Shown here piece by piece: positions 33,477 through 52,099 of a stretch of 64,000 nucleotides of DNA. The DNA is taken from contig JALHPO010000005.1 in the NCBI GenBank assembly GCA_022842445.1, forward strand, positions 214,908 to 278,907, read 5' to 3'. Under the pieces are notes generated by a model. The model was not told where the DNA came from, searched no databases, and saw only the letters and a program-made list of their open reading frames with translations. A program made the position numbers and the translations under genes. This stretch comes from Nitrospira sp. GTDB taxonomy: Bacteria > Nitrospirota > Nitrospiria > Nitrospirales > Nitrospiraceae. Numbering within the stretch: position 1 is the first letter of the stretch; each line of letters starts with the position of its first letter.

Positions 33477-33625
33477 GTCTAAATATCGAGAGAGATCATA
33501 AATGTTTGCTCGATTTTGTAAACACTTAGCACGCGCAGAGCCTGGGTCTGTTTCTTGCTGATGCTCACGACCAGGATGAGATTCTCATCCGCAAATGAAC
33601 GGTGAAATCCTTGGAGGTTAGTGCC

Positions 33626-34984
33626 ATGGACGGCGCGCCAGTTGTGACTTCATCCGGATCGCTTTCAGCAAACCGCGATACTGCCTATGGCGAAGGGCTG
33701 CTCAAAATGGCGGCCTTCGAGCCTGCGGCTTTTCAAGCTCAGTATGTGGGCCGCGATATCGCAGCCGGATTGATTACCGGAGTGATGGCCATCCCGCTGT
33801 CGGTGGGGATCGCCATGATGTCCGATTATCCCATTAAAGTGGGGCTCGCCACCGTGGCATTTGCCTGCATGATTGGCTGGATTAACGCATGGATCAGGCC
33901 GGGCAACTTTATCGGATGCCCCGGGATTGCCGCAGGATTAGCGCCTGTCCTGGCGATAGGGGTTGCCAGCTTCGGCATGGAAAACATGGCCTTTGTAATT
34001 TTCCTCACGGCCGTCATGCAGGCCATCATTTGGAAGTTCAACTGGCAACGCTATATCTTGCTCGTCGTCCCGGCTTACCTGGTTGAGGGGTTGCTGGCGG
34101 GAATCGGTTTAAAGATTGCGCTGAAATTCTTGGGCTTCACGTACGAGCTCCCAGCCGAATTGGTAGCCGCAGATACGTTCTTTAACGAGGCCCGCATTCA
34201 ATTGTTACTCATTTCCCTGACCGGACTTGGGCTGTTTGTCTATCTCTTTACAAAATTCCGGTACATACAGCCGGCCGTTCCATACTTCGTCATCATAGCA
34301 GCCGGCGTAACCCTGGCCCAGTTCGTTCATGTACCCATGTTACATGTGGAAGATGTGCCGCTATCACTGGCGCTTCCCATTCCCCATTTCGACAATGCAC
34401 TCACATGGGCGTATGTGTTCGGATTTGCGGCCATGCTCGCGGTGATCGACGTGATCGAACAAGTCATGAGCAATGCGGCCATCCAGAAAATCGATCCTCT
34501 CAAGAGAACGTGCAATAGCAATAACAGCTTGTTGGCGATCTGGATCGCCAACATGGGATCGAGTTTCTTTGGCGGCATGACCAATCTGGACGGCCTGGCT
34601 AAGAGCACGACCAACCGGCTGGCAGGCGCCTACACCAAATTCTCCGTCTTGATCATCGGCTGCGTGGTAACCTTCTTTGTCATCAATCCCCAATATCTGG
34701 AACTGCTGCCCAAGTTTGCTGTGGCCATCGTCATGATATTCACAGGCTGGAAAATGATTGCCGGACTGATGCACGTGACCCACCACGGCCCCTATGCCCT
34801 GGTCCTCGCCTTTCTGACCGGAGCCCTCGTGTACAAGGTGGGAATATTCGAAGGTCTGCTTGTGGCGATGGCTATACACGGCGCTGTGCACTACCTGGTG
34901 GATACCCAGGCCAACAAACGGCCGGTGAAAGCCATTGTCGGTGACTATTTTTCGAATCTGAGGAAGATCAGCAGCGAATCCTGA
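33626..34984 (+). CDS. SulP-like inorganic anion transporter, paralogue A
   Basis: This 452-residue integral membrane protein has about 12 helices. The first repeat has GRDIAAGLITGVMAIPLSVGIAMM and GCPGIAAGLAPVLAIG, and the middle is highly conserved (NSNNSLLAIWIANMGSSFF, GGMTNLDGLAKSTTNRLAG). No STAS domain follows, unlike typical SulP sulfate or bicarbonate carriers. GGAGG lies eight bases before the ATG at 33626, so the track's start at 33602 is rejected. A close paralogue lies at 42.5 kb. The substrate (sulfate, bicarbonate or another anion) is not determined. Confidence 0.8.
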   Translation: MDGAPVVTSSGSLSANRDTAYGEGLLKMAAFEPAAFQAQYVGRDIAAGLITGVMAIPLSVGIAMMSDYPIKVGLATVAFACMIGWINAWIRPGNFIGCPGIAAGLAPVLAIGVASFGMENMAFVIFLTAVMQAIIWKFNWQRYILLVVPAYLVEGLLAGIGLKIALKFLGFTYELPAELVAADTFFNEARIQLLLISLTGLGLFVYLFTKFRYIQPAVPYFVIIAAGVTLAQFVHVPMLHVEDVPLSLALPIPHFDNALTWAYVFGFAAMLAVIDVIEQVMSNAAIQKIDPLKRTCNSNNSLLAIWIANMGSSFFGGMTNLDGLAKSTTNRLAGAYTKFSVLIIGCVVTFFVINPQYLELLPKFAVAIVMIFTGWKMIAGLMHVTHHGPYALVLAFLTGALVYKVGIFEGLLVAMAIHGAVHYLVDTQANKRPVKAIVGDYFSNLRKISSES

Positions 34985-35140: not shown

Positions 35141-37138
35141 ATGCCCTCCCTCAGACGCGCCCGTTCGAAGCCACCGATCCCGGCCCGATCTGAGGTGGCC
35201 GCAGCGGAAGTCCTCGCCTGGCTGAGCGACTGTATCGAAGGCGGCTTATGTTTTGTGTCCAAAGGCATCCTGATTTTCGAAAATGCCCAATTCGGAGAAC
35301 TGAGCGAAGCTGCCTCAGGCGCCGGCACTGAGCACCCGGCCCACACCGTCCAAGACAGAGAGTCCTCGCTCCGCACCAGATTGTTCGCCGATGCCACGGC
35401 CTGGGAGGCCCAACGACTGGGCGCCCATGAGACGCAAACCTACAGGCTCACCGATCGACAGGGGCACCCGCTGATCTACGAGTGCCGCTTCAACGTCGTG
35501 CCCTATCACGGCGCCACCGGGGTTCTGCTTGTTTTGCAGGATGTCACCGATCGCATGCTTCTCGCACAGGAGGCCTCACAGGTCGCCAGGTTCCAATCCG
35601 TTCTCGCCCGTATCGGCACCCTGGCCGTCAGTGATGCGCCGGCTCAGGAATTGATGAACGAAGCCGTCCGCCATACGGCCCGGGCACTGGAAGTGGAACT
35701 GTGCAAGATTCTGATCGCGCGGGATAATGACGATCATCTCGCCGTTGTCGCGGGCATTGGAATCGAGGAGGATTTGATCGGCAAGCTGACGATCGAAGGA
35801 GGCACACATTCCCAAGCCGGTTTCGCCATTCGTGAACGGGTACCGGTGGCCGTGCGTGATTTGAGGAAAGAAACCCGCTTTACCCCGTCGAAACTCCTGA
35901 CCGAACATGGCGGCATTGCCGGCATGTGCGTCCCGATGCTCGTCGAAGACCGGGTCTACGGCGTCATGACGGCCCATTCCAAACAGGTCCGCGACTTTAC
36001 GGAAAAGGAACAGGAATTTCTCTGCACGGTTGCGAACACGATCGCGACGGTTCTGGAGCGGCGCAGGCGCGCCGATACACAACGGGACTTCTACCACCGG
36101 CTTTTCATGTCGGCCCAGGACGGCATCATGCTGACCGATACCGATGGCCGGATCCTGGAATGGAACCCCGCTCTCGAACGGATGACCGGGTGGACCCGCG
36201 ACGAAGCCCTGGGGCAACGTCCCACCATCTTGAAGTCGGGGAAGCACGGTCCTGAATTCTACGGGCGATTGTGGCAGGCAATCCGATCGGGCCAGCCGTT
36301 CGTCGACCGGTTTGTAAACCGGAGAAAAGACGGATCAGAAGTTCTTGTGTGGGAAAGCGTGAATCCGGTGAAGGACCGCGACGGAACAACGCAATACTAT
36401 ATGGCGATCCTCACGGATTTGAGCGAACGGGAACAGATGTTGGAAGCCTTGCGGCATGCGGAACAAGTCAAATTGGTCGGGCAACTCGCGGGTGGGATTC
36501 TCCACGAAGTCCGAAATCCCTTGATCGGGCTTGGCAGCCTTGCCACGCATCTGGCCGCACAGGAGGAATTGCCGCAGGCGGCCAGGGACCGCTGCCGGCT
36601 CATCGCGCGAGAGGCGGCGCGCATCGACGACTTGCTGGAGTCCCACCTCGGCCAGCTCCGCCCGCAGCCATTCGATCTTCAGCCCTGCGACCTCCCCTCG
36701 CTCATCGACGACACCCTGATCCTGCTAAGACCAAATTTGACCAAACAGCATGTCCGTGTGACGAAGACCATCGCGACGGACCTGCCCATGGTCGAGGCCT
36801 CCCGTGCCCATCTTCAACAAGTCTGCCTCAACATCACGATGAACGCGATCGACGCCATGGCCGGCGGAGGGGATCTGACGGTTGACCTACGACCCGAAAC
36901 TCGACGAACCCCCGGAGTGCTGATGACATTTTCCGACAGCGGCAAGGGCATTCCACCCGACGACCTGCAGCGTATCTTTGAGCCGTTTTTCACCAACGGC
37001 AAAGCGAAGGGCGTGGGGCTTGGCTTGACGATCACACACGACATCATCGAACGGCACGGCGGGCAGCTCATGATCAGCAGCCCCGCCAGCAAGGGTGCCA
37101 TCGTAGAAGTGTGGCTGCCGGTAAAGCGAGAAGGCTGA
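35141..37138 (+). CDS. Hybrid sensor histidine kinase (PAS-GAF-PAS-HisKA)
   Basis: This 665-residue cytoplasmic kinase has no membrane helix. In order: a PAS-like region (about 20-130), a GAF domain (about 150-305), a PAS domain (AQDGIMLTDTDGRILEWNPA, about 325-435) and the dimerisation helix with the phosphorylated His in AGGILHEVRNPLIGL. An HATPase domain follows (NAIDAMAGGGDLTVD, FSDSGKGIPPDD and GVGLGLTITHDI boxes). It probably senses an internal redox or metabolite signal and acts on the next gene, whose start lies one base downstream. Confidence 0.92.
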   Translation: MPSLRRARSKPPIPARSEVAAAEVLAWLSDCIEGGLCFVSKGILIFENAQFGELSEAASGAGTEHPAHTVQDRESSLRTRLFADATAWEAQRLGAHETQTYRLTDRQGHPLIYECRFNVVPYHGATGVLLVLQDVTDRMLLAQEASQVARFQSVLARIGTLAVSDAPAQELMNEAVRHTARALEVELCKILIARDNDDHLAVVAGIGIEEDLIGKLTIEGGTHSQAGFAIRERVPVAVRDLRKETRFTPSKLLTEHGGIAGMCVPMLVEDRVYGVMTAHSKQVRDFTEKEQEFLCTVANTIATVLERRRRADTQRDFYHRLFMSAQDGIMLTDTDGRILEWNPALERMTGWTRDEALGQRPTILKSGKHGPEFYGRLWQAIRSGQPFVDRFVNRRKDGSEVLVWESVNPVKDRDGTTQYYMAILTDLSEREQMLEALRHAEQVKLVGQLAGGILHEVRNPLIGLGSLATHLAAQEELPQAARDRCRLIAREAARIDDLLESHLGQLRPQPFDLQPCDLPSLIDDTLILLRPNLTKQHVRVTKTIATDLPMVEASRAHLQQVCLNITMNAIDAMAGGGDLTVDLRPETRRTPGVLMTFSDSGKGIPPDDLQRIFEPFFTNGKAKGVGLGLTITHDIIERHGGQLMISSPASKGAIVEVWLPVKREG

Positions 37139-37139
37139 G

Positions 37140-38543
37140 ATGCCCTGGCAACTGTTACTCGTTGAAGACGAAGAATCCGTCCGCGAGGCCTTTGCATTAC
37201 GGCTCAGCGACCAAGGCTACCTCGTCCAGACCGCAGGCTCAGGAGCAGAAGCGCTGTCGTTGCTCCGTTCGTTCGAGCCGGACATTCTTGTCCTTGATCT
37301 CGTTATGCCGAATTTGTCCGGCCTCGACGTGCTCGCCAGAGTGAAGCAGACGTCCCCCAATCTCCTCGCCATTCTCTTAACAGCGCGCGGGACCGTCAAA
37401 GATGCCGTGGAGGCTACCAAACTCGGGGCTTTCGACTTCGTAGCCAAGTCCATCGACATGGAAGACCTGCTGCATGCGCTGCACCGCGCAACGGAATTGC
37501 TCACGCTACAGCGTCAAGTCCGCTTACAAAGCGGGCAGGAAGTGGAACGGTATGCCCTCGATCGTGTCATCGCCAAAAGCCCCGTCACTCAAGCGTTCCT
37601 CGCACAGGTCCGCGAGTTGGCGAAAAACGACCGTGTCACAGTGCTGTTGCAGGGCGAAACCGGAACGGGAAAGCAATACACCGGCCGTGTGATGCATTTT
37701 AACGGTGCCCGGGGCGATAAACCCTGCATCGAAGTCGACTGTCCGTCGATCCCCCGTGAATTGTTCGAAAGCGAGCTATTCGGGCACGAAAGGGGTTCCT
37801 TTACAGGCGCAGCAGGCAGAAAGACGGGTTTGATCGAGATGGCGGACGGTGGGACGGTGCTGTTCGACGAGATCGCTGATCTCCCGCTGGCGCTCCAGGC
37901 CAAACTACTCCGGGTGATTGAGGAACGGACCTTGCGCCGTGTCGGGGGGGCAGCCACAATCCCCGTTGATGTTCGCTTCATGGCCGCAACGAATCGCAAT
38001 CTGAAAGACGCGGTAGCCAAAGGCGAGTTTCGCGAGGATCTCTATTTCCGGCTGAACGTCGTGACCTTGACCGTTCCTCCGCTACGAGAACGTCAGGAGG
38101 ACATCATCCCCCTGGCAGAGCGATTCCTGACCCGCTCGGCCCTTTCACTGAGAAAACCGGTCCGCCGTTTGGGAGACAGCGCACAAGCCCTCCTGCGCCG
38201 ATACAACTTTCCGGGCAATGTGCGGGAGCTCAGCAATCTCTTGGAACGTGCGGTACTCTTCTGTTCAGGAGATACTCTTGAATCGATGCATTTCCCGTCA
38301 GATGTGCAAGGCAATCTTTCACGACCGTTTGCAGAGGCGGCCCATCCTTCATCCACTTCCTCAGGCATATTGGACCCCTCTCAAATCCACTTATCGTTTC
38401 ACCTCGGCGAATCCTTGGCCAATCTCGAGGACCGCATCATCAACGAAGTCTTGAAGCACGCCGATGGAAACAAATCCCTTGCAGCCAAGCACCTCGGCAT
38501 TACCCGCTGGATGCTCGATCGCCGGCGCAAATCCAAGCCGTAA
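37140..38543 (+). CDS. NtrC-family sigma-54-dependent response regulator
   Basis: This 467-residue protein has an N-terminal receiver (LVEDEESVREAFALRL, phospho-Asp in ILVLDLVMPNLSG, Lys in FVAKS). The AAA+ domain has Walker A GETGTGKQ, FDEIADLPL, the GAFTGA loop written as GSFTGA, and arginine-finger sequences. A Fis-type helix-turn-helix ends the protein (NKSLAAKHLGITRWMLDRR). It should activate sigma-54 promoters when phosphorylated by the adjacent kinase. The GSFTGA change is conservative, but that loop contacts sigma-54, so it is worth noting. Confidence 0.93.
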   Translation: MPWQLLLVEDEESVREAFALRLSDQGYLVQTAGSGAEALSLLRSFEPDILVLDLVMPNLSGLDVLARVKQTSPNLLAILLTARGTVKDAVEATKLGAFDFVAKSIDMEDLLHALHRATELLTLQRQVRLQSGQEVERYALDRVIAKSPVTQAFLAQVRELAKNDRVTVLLQGETGTGKQYTGRVMHFNGARGDKPCIEVDCPSIPRELFESELFGHERGSFTGAAGRKTGLIEMADGGTVLFDEIADLPLALQAKLLRVIEERTLRRVGGAATIPVDVRFMAATNRNLKDAVAKGEFREDLYFRLNVVTLTVPPLRERQEDIIPLAERFLTRSALSLRKPVRRLGDSAQALLRRYNFPGNVRELSNLLERAVLFCSGDTLESMHFPSDVQGNLSRPFAEAAHPSSTSSGILDPSQIHLSFHLGESLANLEDRIINEVLKHADGNKSLAAKHLGITRWMLDRRRKSKP

Positions 38544-38799
38544 CTGAGCGCCGACGCACCTCCGCACCGCCTGCCGTGCACCGACACACACTCAGCGATG
38601 TCATCAATGTAGAAAGTGCCGGACCGTATTTTGATGATCTCGATTTTCTTCGAAATCCGATCACTCTCCAGAATTTTCCTGAGGCGCAACTCGGGACTGC
38701 CGATTGCATCGGTGTGGGTGTCGCATATATTCAAGGTGGACCGTGGAGTCTCGATCCGGGCACTGTTCTTTGCTCGCTCACTTGTTGGGAACAGGCACC

Positions 38800-41172
38800 A
38801 TGTCAGTGCAAACGCTCAAACTGGTAGTCCTCATGGTGGGACTAGTCTGGATTTCCTGCCCGCTCGTTGTCTACGCCTCATCCTCCCGGACAAAATCCGG
38901 CGACGATGCCGCCCGCTTCGTACTGGAGTACGTCGAGGCATTGGCCCATTCACAGACCGACAGATGGGCCATGGCGGACCTGGGCTGCCTCAGCCGCGCC
39001 CGAACAACCTCCGGAAGCGGATCTCCGAAGTTAACCCAGGATGTTGCCCGTCGTTGCTGGGACGACACATTGCGAGGCCATGCCAATATGGTGGCGCAGC
39101 AGGCTGAATCCGGCGTATTCAGTGCTACCGGGCGCGGGATCGGTCTCGGCCTATTACATGATCGGCACCGGGCCACGGAGAATTGGAAAGAATACCCGCC
39201 TGCGGTCTTTCTTTCCCCACCCATCATTCGGAAGGACCACGCCCCGATTCCTCAGACGACAGCCGTGCGGACGAGTCCGTTGCGGCCAATCGCCCTGTCG
39301 CAGATCAACGGCGCCGATCTTGTCTCGGTCGGCGGTCAGGCCGTGGATATCAAGATCGTCTACCCTGACCCTCTCACCGCACCGCTTGCCCTCAGGCCCG
39401 AAGAAATATGGTGGGTGAACGGAGCTCAGCGACAGTTCGGGCCTGTTCGCGAGGTCGCGGTTCGGTTTGTCGTGGTGACCGGCCTGCGCAAGTTCGGCTT
39501 CAGCGCAGATCGCGCCGTCATGAACGAAGTGCTTCCGGGCGTTCCACTGATTCCAACGACCTACTACGGCTTGCGGCCGGACAACGGCCGGAAGTTCGAC
39601 CAGGCCGACCCTACCGAGGCTCTCTTGAAGGGCGGACTCATCGCAGGATCAGCGCGCTGGTGGGAGCGCGGAGACGCGGAGCCTGTCATGCAGGCTGCCT
39701 TGGACCGGGCCATCCATCTCACGGCTGCAGAACGTGCAGGATTGCTGACCCGGCTACTGTTAATCGATCCGAACCATGCAGGCACCCACATACTCCGTGG
39801 TGACGACAGCTACCAGGACTTTCTGAAGCAGGGCGTGGTGAAGGGGGGATTGGCGGCTCGCGACGAGCCGGCGCTGCAGCGCATCACCGAACTCTACTGG
39901 ACCATCCAAGCGCAAACCTGGCGCCAGGAATTGACCGCCGTATCGGAAGGGTATGAGCCAGCCGCCGATGCGCTGTATCGGGCCATTGCTTCCTACGAGT
40001 CAATCGTTCAACAGAATCGCGCAACGCCGGAGCAGCGCCGCCGCCTTGGCACGTTGACCCGATGGAACAACGATCCGACCGGCGCCCTCAGTATCCATGA
40101 GGCGTTGCTACGCGACACCGCCGCAGGCACAGCCGAGTACGGCCGGATCCTGACTGAGATCGCCTGGGATCGCATCCAGTTGGTGTCGTGGGAACGGCGC
40201 TACGACCATCCCTGGCTGCAACGAGCCAATGACGAAGCCGGACAGGCTGTCGGGTTGCTGACTCAGCCCTACGACACAATCCATGCGCACTATGCGCAGG
40301 TCGCGGTCGAATCGCTCCTGGTGCCACGTAATCCGGACCGCTTTCAGCAAGGGATGCAGCGGAGCAAGCAGGATTTGGATCGGATTTCCGGGATAAAGGG
40401 GCTGCAAGGGCATCTGGTTGCCAACGATCTCGTCAAGTCACTGATGCCGGATGCTGCCGCCATCGTCCTGCCGAGTCCACCGCGATTGCTTGAAGTGCTC
40501 GACGTGTCGGTGCATGCCAATCCGCCCAAGCAGGACATCCTTTGGAAATGGAATTTCGATCAAGACGAGCCAGGACAGGTCCCCACCGGTTTCGTGCGGC
40601 TGGGCCTGACTGATGAGGACCCAGCTGCCTGGCAAGTCCAGGACGATCAGGAGGCGCCAAGCGGGAGGCAACGGCTGCTCCGCTCTTCTGCCTGCCCGAC
40701 ACCAGACTGCGTGCGACTCCTTGTCGCAGATGGGATCAGGACTACCTATCCCGACGTGACCGTCCATGTGCGCTCGCCCAGCATGAAGGACCGGAGTGAA
40801 GGCGGCATCGCCATCGCTGTGACGGACGGCAACAACTATTATGCGATCACGCTGCAGACTACGGCCGGTCTTGTCACAACACGTCGTATCACGGATGGCG
40901 TGGCAACCGTGTTGGGGCAAGTCAGCACCAAACTTGCCGCCAAGCCCTGGCACACCATTCGTGTCCAACGTATCAATTTCCTCCATCTCGACAAGGGCCG
41001 GCTCGCCGTCTATATCGACGGCGCCCAGGTTGCAGCCGTCGACGATGCCGTCCTCCCGCAGGAAGGCCAGGTGGGACTGATCGCACTGGGCTCGTCGGGT
41101 ACCCAGTTCGACAACCTCCATATACTGGATCTCGTTTCGAACCGGACCTTCTCGAAACCGGCTGCCTACTGA
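38800..41172 (+). CDS. Large exported protein with a lectin-like C-terminal domain
   Basis: The ATG at 38800 gives a signal peptide ([21 protein letters not shown]) and about 790 residues; the track's start adds an unlikely N-terminus. The N-terminal part (to about residue 230) is of unknown type, and the middle is helical with TPR-like helices. The last 200 residues ([57 protein letters not shown]) look like a concanavalin/LamG-type jelly roll. No catalytic motif is seen. It ends 20 bases before the CysD-like gene. Confidence 0.7.
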
Positions 41173-41191: not shown

Positions 41192-41989
41192 ATGAAGCAT
41201 TTACGCGCCCTTGAGGATCAAAGCGTCTACATCCTACGCGAAGCGTACAAGCATTTCGACGACCTCGCTATGCTCTGGTCGATGGGTAAAGACTCGACGG
41301 TGCTATTGTGGCTGGCCAGAAAGGCCTTCTTTGGTCATGTGCCGTTTCCGCTCGTACACATCGATACCGGCTACGAAATGCCTGAATTGATCGAATATCG
41401 TGATCGCCTCGCCAAGGAGTGGCACCTCGATCTCGTCGTCGGCCAGAACCGCGAGGCACTGGCCGGCGGCATGGGCCCTGATCAGGGTCGCGTCACCTGT
41501 TGCACGGCGATGAAGATCGAGGCGCTCAAGCAGACGATTGCGAGGCACAAGTGGACGGCCGTGATTCTTGGTATTCGCGCCGATGAGGAAGGAACACGCG
41601 CAAAAGAACGTTATTTCTCATTGCGCGATAAGCATGGCGAGTGGAATTTCCGGGACCAGCCACCCGAACTATGGGACCAATTTAATACCACGTTCCCGGC
41701 TGGTGCTCATATCCGCGTCCATCCTCTGCTCGATTGGACGGAATTGAATATCTGGGAGTATCTTGAACTCGAACAGGTTCCCCTTCCAAAACTGTATTTC
41801 GATCAAGGCAATAGCGTGCGGTATCGGAGTTTGGGATGCGTGCCTTGCACCGGCACCGTGAATTCCTGCGCCTCAACCGTTCCGCAGATCATCACGGAGT
41901 TGCGGACCACGACAAGCGCTGAACGAGCCGGACGGGCGCAGGATGAAGGTCGCGGAATGGAAACACTCCGCAAGCTCGGACATATGTAA
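41192..41989 (+). CDS. CysD/PAPS-reductase superfamily protein with APS-reductase-like cysteines
   Basis: This 265-residue N-type ATP pyrophosphatase has the PP-loop SMGKDST (residues 30-36) and strong CysD features: [35 protein letters not shown] and [14 protein letters not shown]. It lacks an adjacent cysN. Unlike CysD it carries VTCCTAMK (CC at 103-104) and [13 protein letters not shown] (C216, C219, C226). CC plus CXXC is the iron-sulfur ligand set of APS reductases. It could be an ATP sulfurylase subunit, a reductase or a sulfur-transfer enzyme; only the superfamily is certain. Confidence 0.8.
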
Positions 41990-42457: not shown

Positions 42458-43831
42458 ATGACACCTTATGAAGCAGAACCAGCCATGACGACACCAAGAA
42501 ACGAAGTTGCAGAGACTGGAAGTGCCCCGCCTGTTGATACGGGGCCAGTCGCCATGCCTGCCTCAGCCGCTTTCCAAGCGCAATATGCCGGGCGTGATAT
42601 CGCCGCCGGCCTGATCGCCGGGTCAATGGCGATACCATTGTCGGTGGGTATTGCCATGATGTCCGAGTATCCCATTAAAGTGGGACTGGCCACCGTCGCG
42701 TTTGCCTGCCTTGTCGGTTGGATCAATGCCTGGTTCAAGCCCGGCAACTATATCGGGTGTCCTGGCATCGCGGCGGGTCTGGCGCCGGTGTTGGCCGTGG
42801 GAGTGGCCACCTTCGGCCTGGACAATATGGCTTTCGCCATTCTCCTGACCGCTACCATTCAAGCCGTCATCTGGTTCTTTAACTGGCAACGGTATATTTT
42901 GGTCGCTGTGCCGGTCTACCTCGTCGAAGGGCTGTTGGCAGGCGTCGGTCTGAAGATCGCCTTGAAGTTTTTGGCCTTCACCTATGAGCTGCCTCCAGGT
43001 ATGGAAGCCGCCGACTCGTTCTTGAACGGTGCGCGTATCCAGATGATCCTCATCTCCATGGCGGGATACGGTCTCTTTGTCTATCTCTTTCTAAAATTCA
43101 AGAACACGCAACCGGCTGTTCCCTATTTCGTCATCATCGTAGCAGGCATCACCCTCGCTCAGTTCGTGACGGTGCCCATGCTGTCCATGGAAGATACGGA
43201 ACTCAAGCTCGCGCTGCCGGTCCCGCATTTTGACAGTGCGTTGACATTTCTCTACATGCTGGGATTCGCGGTGATGCTGGCGCTGATCGACGTCATCGAA
43301 CAGGTCATGAGTAATGCCGCGATTGAAAAGATCGACCCGCTCAAGCGCAAATGCAACAGCAATAACAGCCTGTTGGCCATCTGGATCGCCAATATGGGGT
43401 CGAGCTTCTTCGGCGGCATGACCAACCTGGACGGTTTGGCAAAGAGCACCACCAATCGCCTGGCTGGAGCCTATACGAAGTTTTCTGTCCTGATCATCGG
43501 TTGCGTGGTGACCTTCTTTACCTTCAACACACACTCACTCGAATATCTCCCGAAGTTTGCGTTAGCGGTCATCATGATCTTCTCCGGCTGGAAGATGATC
43601 GAGGGACTCGTGCATGTGACCCATCACGGTCCCTATGCCATGATCCTCGCCATTTTATGCGGCGTGCTGGTCTTCAAGGTGGGGATTTTCGAGGGATTGC
43701 TGATTGCCATGGCCGTGCACGGGATCGTGCACTATATGGTCTATGCCAATCTTGACAAGATGCCGGGACGCGCGATCGTCAAGCGATACATCGATGATCT
43801 CAAAAAGAGCGACGCCGGCGATATCACCTAA
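42458..43831 (+). CDS. SulP-like inorganic anion transporter, paralogue B
   Basis: This 457-residue protein is nearly identical along its membrane core to paralogue A at 33.6 kb. It has the same GRDIAAGLIAGSMAIPLSVG and GCPGIAAGLAPVLAVG segments and the same NSNNSLLAIWIANMGSSFF and GGMTNLDGLAKSTTNRLAG blocks. It differs mainly at both ends and around residues 180-260. Again no STAS domain. The start is 42458 or the ATG at 42485; neither has a strong ribosome site. It is followed by a UspA protein. Confidence 0.8.
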   Translation: MTPYEAEPAMTTPRNEVAETGSAPPVDTGPVAMPASAAFQAQYAGRDIAAGLIAGSMAIPLSVGIAMMSEYPIKVGLATVAFACLVGWINAWFKPGNYIGCPGIAAGLAPVLAVGVATFGLDNMAFAILLTATIQAVIWFFNWQRYILVAVPVYLVEGLLAGVGLKIALKFLAFTYELPPGMEAADSFLNGARIQMILISMAGYGLFVYLFLKFKNTQPAVPYFVIIVAGITLAQFVTVPMLSMEDTELKLALPVPHFDSALTFLYMLGFAVMLALIDVIEQVMSNAAIEKIDPLKRKCNSNNSLLAIWIANMGSSFFGGMTNLDGLAKSTTNRLAGAYTKFSVLIIGCVVTFFTFNTHSLEYLPKFALAVIMIFSGWKMIEGLVHVTHHGPYAMILAILCGVLVFKVGIFEGLLIAMAVHGIVHYMVYANLDKMPGRAIVKRYIDDLKKSDAGDIT

Positions 43832-43933: not shown

Positions 43934-44341
43934 ATGTTCAAGAAAATTATGGTGGCGATCGACGGCAGTGAGATTTCCATGGAGGCGTTGAGGGAATCGG
44001 AGCGCATGGCCGTCTCCCATCATGCGACCCTGCGCATTGTCTACGCCGTGGCCGATTCAGACGAGGCTGATCAGCAGACCGGCCTCAAGTTGTTGGAGCA
44101 GGCCAAGTCCGCTGTCGGCAACGGCCTGGACGTGGAAACCTGCATACTGCACGCCGAAGCCCAATATGGCCTGAACGGTATTGCAGAAGCCATCGCCGGT
44201 GCGGCGAATGAATGGGACGCCGACCTCGTGGTGGTGGGAACGGCGAATCGTCGCGGGTTAGAACGTTTCGTGATCGGTTCAGTAGCGGAACAGTTGATCG
44301 CCAAGATTGACGCATCTGTTCTCGTGGTTCGTCCATCGTAA
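43934..44341 (+). CDS. Universal stress protein (UspA family)
   Basis: This 135-residue single-domain protein begins FKKIMVAIDGSEISMEALRE (ATP-binding Asp). It ends with the nucleotide-binding loop VVVGTANRRGLERFVIGSVAEQLI and SVLVVRPS, where GTANRRGLERF takes the place of the usual G2XG9XGS motif. It follows SulP paralogue B by about 100 bases, so it may act as a regulator or partner of that transporter, as USP domains do for other carriers (inference). Confidence 0.92.
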   Translation: MFKKIMVAIDGSEISMEALRESERMAVSHHATLRIVYAVADSDEADQQTGLKLLEQAKSAVGNGLDVETCILHAEAQYGLNGIAEAIAGAANEWDADLVVVGTANRRGLERFVIGSVAEQLIAKIDASVLVVRPS

Positions 44342-49911: not shown

Positions 49912-50691
49912 ATGAAAGCCCACACACGAATGGATAGATTGCAATTGCAGAATCTCCTTGAACGTGTCCGTGCCGGTGGCATGAGTCTCGATGACGCGTT
50001 GCGCGAGTTGAAGGATCTCCCGTTTGCCGATCTCGGCTATGCCATGGTCGACCACCATCGCGCACTGCGACAAGGGACTCCTGAGGTTATCTTCGGGTTA
50101 GGGAAGAGCGCGGAGCAGATCGTGGGGATCGCAGAGGAACTCGCGCGGACAGGCCAGAATGTGCTGGTCACGCGGCTTGATCGGAAAAAGGCGGTCGCGG
50201 TGACACAAACGCTGCCCTTGCTGAACTACCATGAACTCGCACGCACGGCGACCTGGGAGCAGGCTCCAATTGCACCGCTCGGCAAGCTCCCCATCGCGCT
50301 CGTCTGCGCAGGCACGGCCGATATTCCGGTGGCCGAAGAATGCGCCGAGACGTTGCGCCTGCTGGGCATTCGCATCGAACGCCTCTACGACGTGGGGGTC
50401 GCGGGTATTCACCGGCTTCTCAGCCGCCGCGAGCTCTTTGACAAGACTGCCCTGGCGATTGTGGTAGCGGGCATGGAAGGGGCACTGCCCAGCGCCGTCG
50501 GTGGGCTGGTCTCGATCCCGGTGATCGCGGTTCCAACGTCGACCGGATATGGGGCCGCATTCGGCGGGGTGACGGCACTGGCCTGTATGCTTACGAGCTG
50601 TGCCTCCGGGATCATGGTCTGCAACATCGACAACGGTTTCGGCGCCGCTTTCGCCGCGGCGCGGATTCTGCGCACAGCCGATCGGTTCTAA
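49912..50691 (+). CDS. larB: Nickel-pincer cofactor biosynthesis protein LarB
   Basis: This 259-residue protein has the PurE-like carboxylase domain at the C-terminal half (VCAGTADIPVAEECAETL, RLYDVGVAGIHRLL, VVAGMEGALPSAVGGL, VIAVPTSTGYGAAFGGVTAL) and the LarB N-terminal helix segment (DALRELKDLPFADLGYAMVDHHR). LarB carboxylates nicotinic acid adenine dinucleotide to start the Ni-pincer cofactor of lactate racemase-type enzymes. LarC and LarE are not in this window. The TAA stop is at the edge of a possible degenerate repeat element. Confidence 0.9.
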   Translation: MKAHTRMDRLQLQNLLERVRAGGMSLDDALRELKDLPFADLGYAMVDHHRALRQGTPEVIFGLGKSAEQIVGIAEELARTGQNVLVTRLDRKKAVAVTQTLPLLNYHELARTATWEQAPIAPLGKLPIALVCAGTADIPVAEECAETLRLLGIRIERLYDVGVAGIHRLLSRRELFDKTALAIVVAGMEGALPSAVGGLVSIPVIAVPTSTGYGAAFGGVTALACMLTSCASGIMVCNIDNGFGAAFAAARILRTADRF

Positions 50692-51109: not shown

Positions 51110-52099
51110 ATGAAGACGATGTCCTTCGTCATCGCCGTGCTTCTGATTAGTGCGTCTATCTGGGCGGCAATGACTCAACCCGTTCCCGCGGTAAGTTCAA
51201 CTTCATCGGAGCAGACTGCGCCTGATCATGTGATTCTGTTTGTACTGGAAGGAGTCGATCAACCGGCGCTTAAGACGGGGCCCATGCCGGTCCTGGGGCG
51301 CCTTGTCAAGGCTGGGGCCGTGACATGGTCAGCCAAGACTGTCGTACCCACTCTCCGGCTGCCAGCGATGGCGTCCCTGCTCACCGGGCTGTCGGTCGAG
51401 AAGCACGGCGTCACCTGGAATACCTTCGAGTTCAGCCGAGGCTATCCCAGGCCTCCCACGCTATTCGATTATCTTGACCTCGGCGGCGGGCGGGACAGCG
51501 CCATTTTCTTCATGGACGAATCGTTGTATCAGCTCGCGAAACCTGAGCCCTATACGGATTACCAGATGTGCGGGCCGTTGAAACCAGAGTGCAGTCCGGC
51601 GCGGCTCGTCTCGTATATCAGGCAATACTTTCAAAAAGCGTCGAGCGGCCATGGATATGGCCATGCCGTTCTGTCATTGCCGCATCTCCTGATCGTGCAC
51701 TTGCCGGATGGAGGGCGCGCCGGAGCCGCCCACGGCTGGAGCTCGAAGGACTATCACGCAGCGCTCCGATCGGTGGATCAGGCCATCGGGGCGGTGCTGG
51801 AGATCTTCGAAGAACAAGGGCTCCTCGCGCGCACCACAGTGTTCGTCACGTCCTTGAGTGGGGCCGGCGCGGTACAGGGGCAATCCACAACGGTCTCATC
51901 ACTCGTCCCATGGATTGCCTTCGGTGCCGGGATCAAGACAGGTCACACTATCCATCAGCCGGTTTCCATTATCGATATGGGCGCGACGGTGATGCGGACC
52001 CTCGGGCTCAAAACCCATATGGAATGGGACAGCCGTGCGGTCGAGGAGATCTTTCGCGACACCGACGCCATCTCCGCGATTCCAACGAAGGGACGGTGA
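51110..52099 (+). CDS. Exported alkaline-phosphatase-fold protein, catalytic residues missing
   Basis: This 329-residue protein has a signal peptide (SFVIAVLLISASIWAAM). It resembles the nucleotide pyrophosphatase/phosphodiesterase group (VVPTLRLPAMASLLTGLSVE, KHGVTWN, SSKDYHAALRSVDQAIGAVL). Key positions are changed: the metal Asp of the first strand reads LEGV, the nucleophile Thr of PTxT is Arg (PTLRLP), and the DHG metal ligands read SLSGAG. It is therefore probably a pseudoenzyme that binds something rather than cleaving it. It precedes an anchored orphan by seven bases. Confidence 0.78.
   Translation: MKTMSFVIAVLLISASIWAAMTQPVPAVSSTSSEQTAPDHVILFVLEGVDQPALKTGPMPVLGRLVKAGAVTWSAKTVVPTLRLPAMASLLTGLSVEKHGVTWNTFEFSRGYPRPPTLFDYLDLGGGRDSAIFFMDESLYQLAKPEPYTDYQMCGPLKPECSPARLVSYIRQYFQKASSGHGYGHAVLSLPHLLIVHLPDGGRAGAAHGWSSKDYHAALRSVDQAIGAVLEIFEEQGLLARTTVFVTSLSGAGAVQGQSTTVSSLVPWIAFGAGIKTGHTIHQPVSIIDMGATVMRTLGLKTHMEWDSRAVEEIFRDTDAISAIPTKGR

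Follow-up and report, generated by a model that had tools for sequence, protein, structure and literature searches.

A paralogous CysD of Nitrospira belongs to a widespread four-cysteine type of ATP-sulfurylase subunit with a predicted iron-sulfur site

The window, i.e. the whole stretch of 64,000 nucleotides of Nitrospira DNA analysed here, contains a gene for a protein that resembles CysD of the heterodimeric ATP sulfurylase CysDN, carries the cysteines of a [4Fe-4S] APS reductase and stands without a cysN. To our knowledge, descriptions of CysDN present it as an enzyme of ATP and GTP that has no metal cluster. Is this protein a new hybrid that couples ATP use with sulfur chemistry, as the initial annotation proposed, or a CysD, and if so, of what kind? 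The gene and the parts of its product referred to below are the following:

41192..41989, + strand: cysD-like paralogue (P0001), 265 aa, PAPS_reduct fold, CysD subfamily
41279..41296, + strand: PP-loop SMGKDS, residues 30-35, ATP site; K33, D34 and S35 identical in 187/187 aligned CysDs
41498..41503, + strand: C103-C104, predicted tandem ligands of an iron-sulfur cluster; aligned to the CC of 2goy and to that of the CysH of this genome, and never found without C219 or missing where C219 is found
41513..41515, + strand: K108, in a CC-x3-K spacing common with CysH (CCQLRK); aligned to the CysH lysine and invariant in 187/187 aligned CysDs, with or without the cysteines
41837..41848, + strand: C216-x-x-C219, predicted cluster ligands; aligned to the CxxC of 2goy and of the own CysH, C216 alone being left in canonical CysD
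41867..41869, + strand: C226, an extra cysteine of the window-type clade only (18/20 window-type sequences; T, E, D, N and others elsewhere)
41915..41986, + strand: CysD C-terminal tail, residues 242-265; 97% identical inside the window clade and 81% to canonical CysD, with low pLDDT in the monomer model

The open frame of 265 codons at 41192-41989 on the + strand was confirmed, and the cysteines of its product are those at 103, 104, 216, 219 and 226 only, as initially annotated; the PP-loop (SMGKDS, 30-35) and the CysD-type C-terminus (ERxGRxxD, 244-251) were likewise found. Pfam assigns the protein to PF01507; no other protein of the window has this PAPS_reduct domain, and the genome encodes four such proteins in all. 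The fourth match of the genome (L004:1222-2205, genome C2) looked by eye like a PP-loop tRNA thiolase of the TtuA/TtcA type and lies beside dnaJ. The broad CysD model PRK05253 of NCBIfam was matched with 356 bits (cut-off 195), and the scores against two narrower CysD models, TIGR02039 (265 vs 396.6) and PRK12563 (272 vs 413), both of which seem to represent the long canonical CysD type, were under the cut-offs. All PAPS/APS reductase models scored far under theirs (cysH, 55.5 vs 165.1; APS_reductase, 55.2 vs 235.3). The best match among solved structures by sequence was CysD from the P. syringae CysDN heterodimer (1zun_A, 2e-63), followed by the APS reductase 2goy (7e-6). The active-site motifs are the same as those of the family (SMGKDS, K108, DEE..Rx[11 protein letters not shown]), the PP-loop, K108, DEE/RxKE and HPLLDWTE all being kept. 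By these family-level features the sequence places the protein among the CysDs of the four-cysteine type, and it was not classed as an APS reductase, of which it lacks two defining features, the catalytic cysteine tail and a score above the reductase model cut-offs.

In the P. aeruginosa APS reductase, the ligands of the cluster are a tandem cysteine pair and a CxxC, a lysine beside the tandem pair connects the cluster to the substrate, and the redox state of the cluster is unchanged during catalysis. In the alignment with 2goy, the four cysteines CC and CxxC of the window CysD are in register with the four [4Fe-4S] ligands, and its CC-x3-K and SLGCxPCT align with the CC-x3-K and SIGCxHCT of the genome's own CysH, so that the APS-reductase ligand layout claimed at the outset is borne out. 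One [4Fe-4S] cluster per monomer is present in the solved APS reductase of P. aeruginosa (PMC10322725). When the protein sequence was shuffled with its five cysteines kept, CC and CxxC occurred together in 99 of 20,000 cases; the main argument against a chance layout, over this test, is conservation, as all four cysteines are found in 146 of 188 distinct relatives. A single-sequence structure model was of no use (pLDDT 34). AlphaFold2 used with the alignment gave a model with pLDDT 78 and pTM 0.78, reaching pLDDT 83 around C103-C104 and 79 around C216-C219, and a fold search with this model returned 1zun_A (E 3e-18, TM 0.85 on the target), APS reductases with TM about 0.7 and the [4Fe-4S] PP-loop enzyme TtuA.

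The cluster ligands in common with APS reductase, together with C226 as a possible extra thiol, are what could be said for a true hybrid with APS/PAPS reductase activity. The C-terminal catalytic cysteine of APS reductases (ECG[IL]H) is absent from the window CysD, which has no cysteine after 226, C226 itself is missing in the rest of the four-cysteine family, and the genome has a complete CysH of the APS-reductase type with CCQLRK, GCTHCT and ECGLH. The missing catalytic tail and the CysH in the genome led us to reject the hybrid, which we regard as scarcely credible; redox chemistry like that of APS reductase is, for want of the catalytic cysteine, not supported.

The absence of cysN was true of the window and not of the genome. 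Neither adjacent to the window cysD nor elsewhere in the window was a cysN found, but the search of the genome (3.46 Mb, 32 contigs, 90% complete) gave a single CysN that passes the family cut-off. It is encoded on another contig, at C3:329490-330674, within a CysNC fusion of 614 aa that comprises GTPase and APS-kinase domains. At the level of genes, a conventional cysN is thus present, a finding that the initial annotation had itself named as refuting its hybrid reading, and it belongs to an operon with the order sir-cysH-PRT-cysD-cysNC, in which a sulfite-reductase-like protein, CysH, an anthranilate-phosphoribosyltransferase-like gene and a 265-aa CysD are encoded upstream of CysNC. The lone CysNC of the genome adjoins its own CysD and not the window copy. 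This canonical CysD (C3:330810-331604) is 74% identical to the window CysD and has the same CC and CxxC. In other genomes of the host order, cysD adjoins cysNC in 14/14 fetched loci, with the anthranilate-phosphoribosyltransferase-like gene near all of them and cysH and sir near most. CysD of this order thus ordinarily has the four cysteines, and the window gene is an additional copy.

The same four cysteines reach far beyond the order. A scan of one genome per species with a short-CysD alignment gave 80 loci from more than 15 phyla, including Omnitrophota, Gemmatimonadota, Planctomycetota, Lentisphaerota, Spirochaetota, Bacillota, Chlorobiota, Chloroflexota, Bacteroidota, Thermodesulfobacteriota and Cloacimonadota, and CC and GCxxCT were present in 80/80. 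Because these loci had been picked by similarity to a four-cysteine sequence, a wider sampling of 299 genomes around a Pseudomonadota record and 200 around a Bacillota record was added, and cysteine states were scored on the 187 of 188 distinct CysD sequences that were long enough. Only three states were found: all four cysteines (146 sequences, more than 15 phyla), C216 only (35) and none (6). The C216-only sequences are the canonical long CysDs with H/Y-T at 103-104 and L at 219, and those without cysteines are short CysDs of alphaproteobacteria, e.g. Skermanella and Roseomonas. No other combination of C103, C104 and C219 was seen in the 187 scored CysDs, the three never being found apart; such conservation and loss of CC and CxxC as a block is a prediction of a shared metal site. 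On a quick tree, the cysteine labels need three changes in all, its branches being long and its deep order not reliable.

CysN or CysNC was encoded within about 5 kb of 72/80 four-cysteine loci in named genomes, mostly directly downstream, with CysH upstream in many. Two of the remaining eight loci stop at a contig end just after cysD, and six are from rumen bacteria with CysN elsewhere in the genome (L102, L104, L107, L108, L115 and L159). Taken together, these loci indicate that the four-cysteine type is the working CysD of CysDN. The cysteine-less short CysDs of the alphaproteobacterial type were found at L081, L082, L083, L181, L182 and L198; the annotated ones lie by cysN/cysC-type genes, which argues that a cluster is not essential to the CysD fold or its pairing, and they are near sulfotransferase or peptide-synthetase genes. 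At L080:1993-6734 and L165 upstream of 4983 (Ilyobacter, Clostridium), a four-cysteine CysD is clustered with an AprA-like adenylylsulfate reductase subunit, a ferredoxin and a CysN-like GTPase, with cysC near; no CysH was seen in these two stretches.

From ligand homology and block conservation we infer a [4Fe-4S] cluster in the window CysD, although it is possible that the paralogue has lost it. CC and CxxC for zinc and for an iron-sulfur cluster are indistinguishable by sequence alone, and the site might instead be a zinc site or a redox disulfide switch. We hold this to be improbable: the cysteines occupy sites homologous to those of the known [4Fe-4S] ligands in APS reductase, down to the unusual tandem CC and the CC-x3-K, and a [4Fe-4S] PP-loop enzyme, TtuA, is among the fold-search matches. 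The best reading of the sequences is that the four-cysteine CysD represents a widespread, apparently undescribed iron-sulfur type of the catalytic subunit of ATP sulfurylase. The open-access PMC literature, to which the search was confined, yielded no description of a cluster or a cysteine motif for CysD, and the novelty is for this reason provisional. It belongs in any case to a large CysD branch, nearly all of whose members lie by CysN, and not to the window gene, where it had been wrongly placed as a singular hybrid.

The window copy is surrounded by the following genes:

35141..37138, + strand: GAF/PAS sensor histidine kinase (Pfam), kept near the paralogue in relatives
37140..38543, + strand: NtrC-type response regulator, a sigma-54 activator (Pfam), kept near the paralogue in relatives
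38704..41172, + strand: large secreted protein of about 800 aa, start codon uncertain; 19 bp upstream of cysD, directly upstream in many relatives
42458..43831, + strand: SulP-family anion transporter (Pfam PF00916), next gene downstream; adjoins the paralogue in several relatives
43934..44341, + strand: universal stress protein after the SulP gene (Pfam PF00582; synteny)

The order conserved in relatives is GAF/PAS kinase, NtrC, large secreted protein and cysD, followed either by SulP and the universal stress protein or by DabA and FolC. The secreted protein (38704..41172) had no Pfam or NCBIfam match, and the 19-base gap makes co-transcription of its gene with cysD likely. A simple -24/-12 pattern scan from 33 to 50.5 kb gave no sigma-54 site just upstream of the window cysD, so that its control by NtrC is only a guess. 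The SulP protein at 42458-43831, which has no recognised STAS domain, is replaced at the same place by the inorganic-carbon protein DabA in L059:10147-13410, L062:14311-17562 and L063:9530-12793, a swap that hints that the SulP beside the paralogue may carry bicarbonate and not sulfate; G000 has its own DabA on contig C7. Two similar SulP transporters (33602-34984 and 42458-43831) flank the block of kinase, NtrC, secreted protein and cysD. Further downstream, the window encodes a LarB/AIRC-like protein (49912-50691) and a secreted protein of the phosphodiesterase/sulfatase fold (51110-52099), and related genes lie close to the paralogue in L057, L058, L059 and L068 (Pfam, run on the relatives only). 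The whole stretch from 33 to 54 kb looks like one reshuffled conserved block. At 715-2991 of the window, an arsenite-methyltransferase-like gene followed by a radical-SAM gene was recognised by eye.

Intact window-type copies (>=86% identical) are present in 18 genomes of the genus, among them that of the window, and those of these genomes whose second matches are listed have the canonical copy as well. Together with two more distant copies they form one clade (99% SH-aLRT), and the sister group of this clade is the order's canonical CysD; the window paralogue is a duplication in the host order and confined to it. The paralogue is under strong purifying selection (dN/dS about 0.03), with pairwise medians of 0.026 for the window clade and 0.036 for the canonical copy at a dS near saturation. 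Internal stops interrupt the window-type copies of at least two further genomes, and the copy of one genome is partial; from the two relatives with stop-broken copies, the paralogue is dispensable. In L066:6739-7101, a truncated second start of the paralogue precedes the full copy with IS-like sequence near, i.e. a broken tandem duplicate. A decaying duplicate was ruled out for most genomes by the dN/dS of 0.026, the two relatives with broken copies aside. An origin from phages or plasmids was also rejected, the phage matches being at most 45% and the plasmid matches at most 58% identical and none of them window-like.

Within the clade, sites that are near-invariant in other four-cysteine CysDs have changed (K62E, I63M, M66L, L107M, P144L and Y264H), which may reflect an altered reaction or partner. 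These fixed changes and the clade-specific C226, the stable surroundings of two-component system, secreted protein and SulP gene (or DabA instead), and the fact that the window-type copy was never beside cysN in the loci surveyed would fit a neofunctionalised paralogue that kept the fold, the ATP site and the iron-sulfur site, has given up APS formation with CysNC and, in the SulP/secreted-protein locus, either adenylates a different oxyanion or a carboxylate or has a regulatory role. We consider this rather unlikely, though worth weighing: there is strong conservation, with no sign of damage, in the ATP motifs, K108, DEE/Rx[10 protein letters not shown] and the CysD tail, identity to the canonical CysD is 74%, several of the changes are conservative, and gene location tells little, as the six rumen genomes also have cysD away from cysN. 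A bolder proposal, to which we give little credence, is that the window-type paralogue is a CysD-derived iron-sulfur adenylating enzyme that works without CysN, with a substrate or signal tied to the SulP/DabA and two-component surroundings and with C226 as a functional thiol.

Our preferred interpretation, which we regard as probable, is that the window protein is the CysD of a heterodimeric ATP sulfurylase from the four-cysteine [4Fe-4S] branch, an order-level paralogue that most likely pairs with CysNC and produces APS under separate control. As catalytic subunit it would form APS from ATP and sulfate at the PP-loop site. By analogy with APS reductase, the predicted cluster would be a non-redox one that CC and CxxC hold close to the adenylyl-sulfate pocket, where it would stabilise the loop bearing K108 and tune the charge around APS. 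As APS is the substrate of the one enzyme and the product of the other, a role of the cluster in holding APS is an economical guess. Sulfate activation would then perhaps respond to oxygen or to the supply of iron. The window copy probably draws in trans on the one CysNC of the genome, which it would share with the canonical CysD, and its separate control is possibly exerted by the upstream kinase/NtrC pair.

Should a [4Fe-4S] cluster indeed be present in the commonest CysD sampled outside the proteobacteria, sulfate assimilation would rely on iron-sulfur biogenesis for its first step. This step may in that case be sensitive to oxygen in the host order and in many anaerobes, and the cluster would appear to be ancient in the CysD/CysH family and to have been lost in canonical CysD, with C216 as a relic. 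The window paralogue offers a natural test of whether a four-cysteine CysD can serve a second pathway.

Compared with known systems, the window CysD agrees with canonical CysD (P. syringae 1ZUN; E. coli) in sequence, fold, PP-loop, K108, RxKE, WTE and C-terminal tail and in the family's genomic link to CysN, whereas in canonical CysD H/Y-T stands where the window CysD has CC, and LGCYPL, preceded by an insert of about 30 residues, where it has GCxxC. With the assimilatory APS reductases (CysH with [4Fe-4S]; 2GOY, 7LHR) it shares the fold and, in register, CC, CC-x3-K and GCxxCT, but it has the CysD tail and the QPPELW and ERxGRxxD motifs instead of ECGLH. TtuA and DndC, both [4Fe-4S] enzymes with a PP-loop, likewise combine this ATP site with iron-sulfur cysteines and differ in cysteine layout, in substrates and in having no link to CysN; in DndC, the cluster is held by three cysteines (PMC10853773). 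The closest counterpart is the genome's other four-cysteine CysD (C3:330810-331604), of the same length and with the same four cysteines, which differs in its place in the sulfate operon, in lacking C226 and in keeping K62, I63, M66, P144 and Y264.
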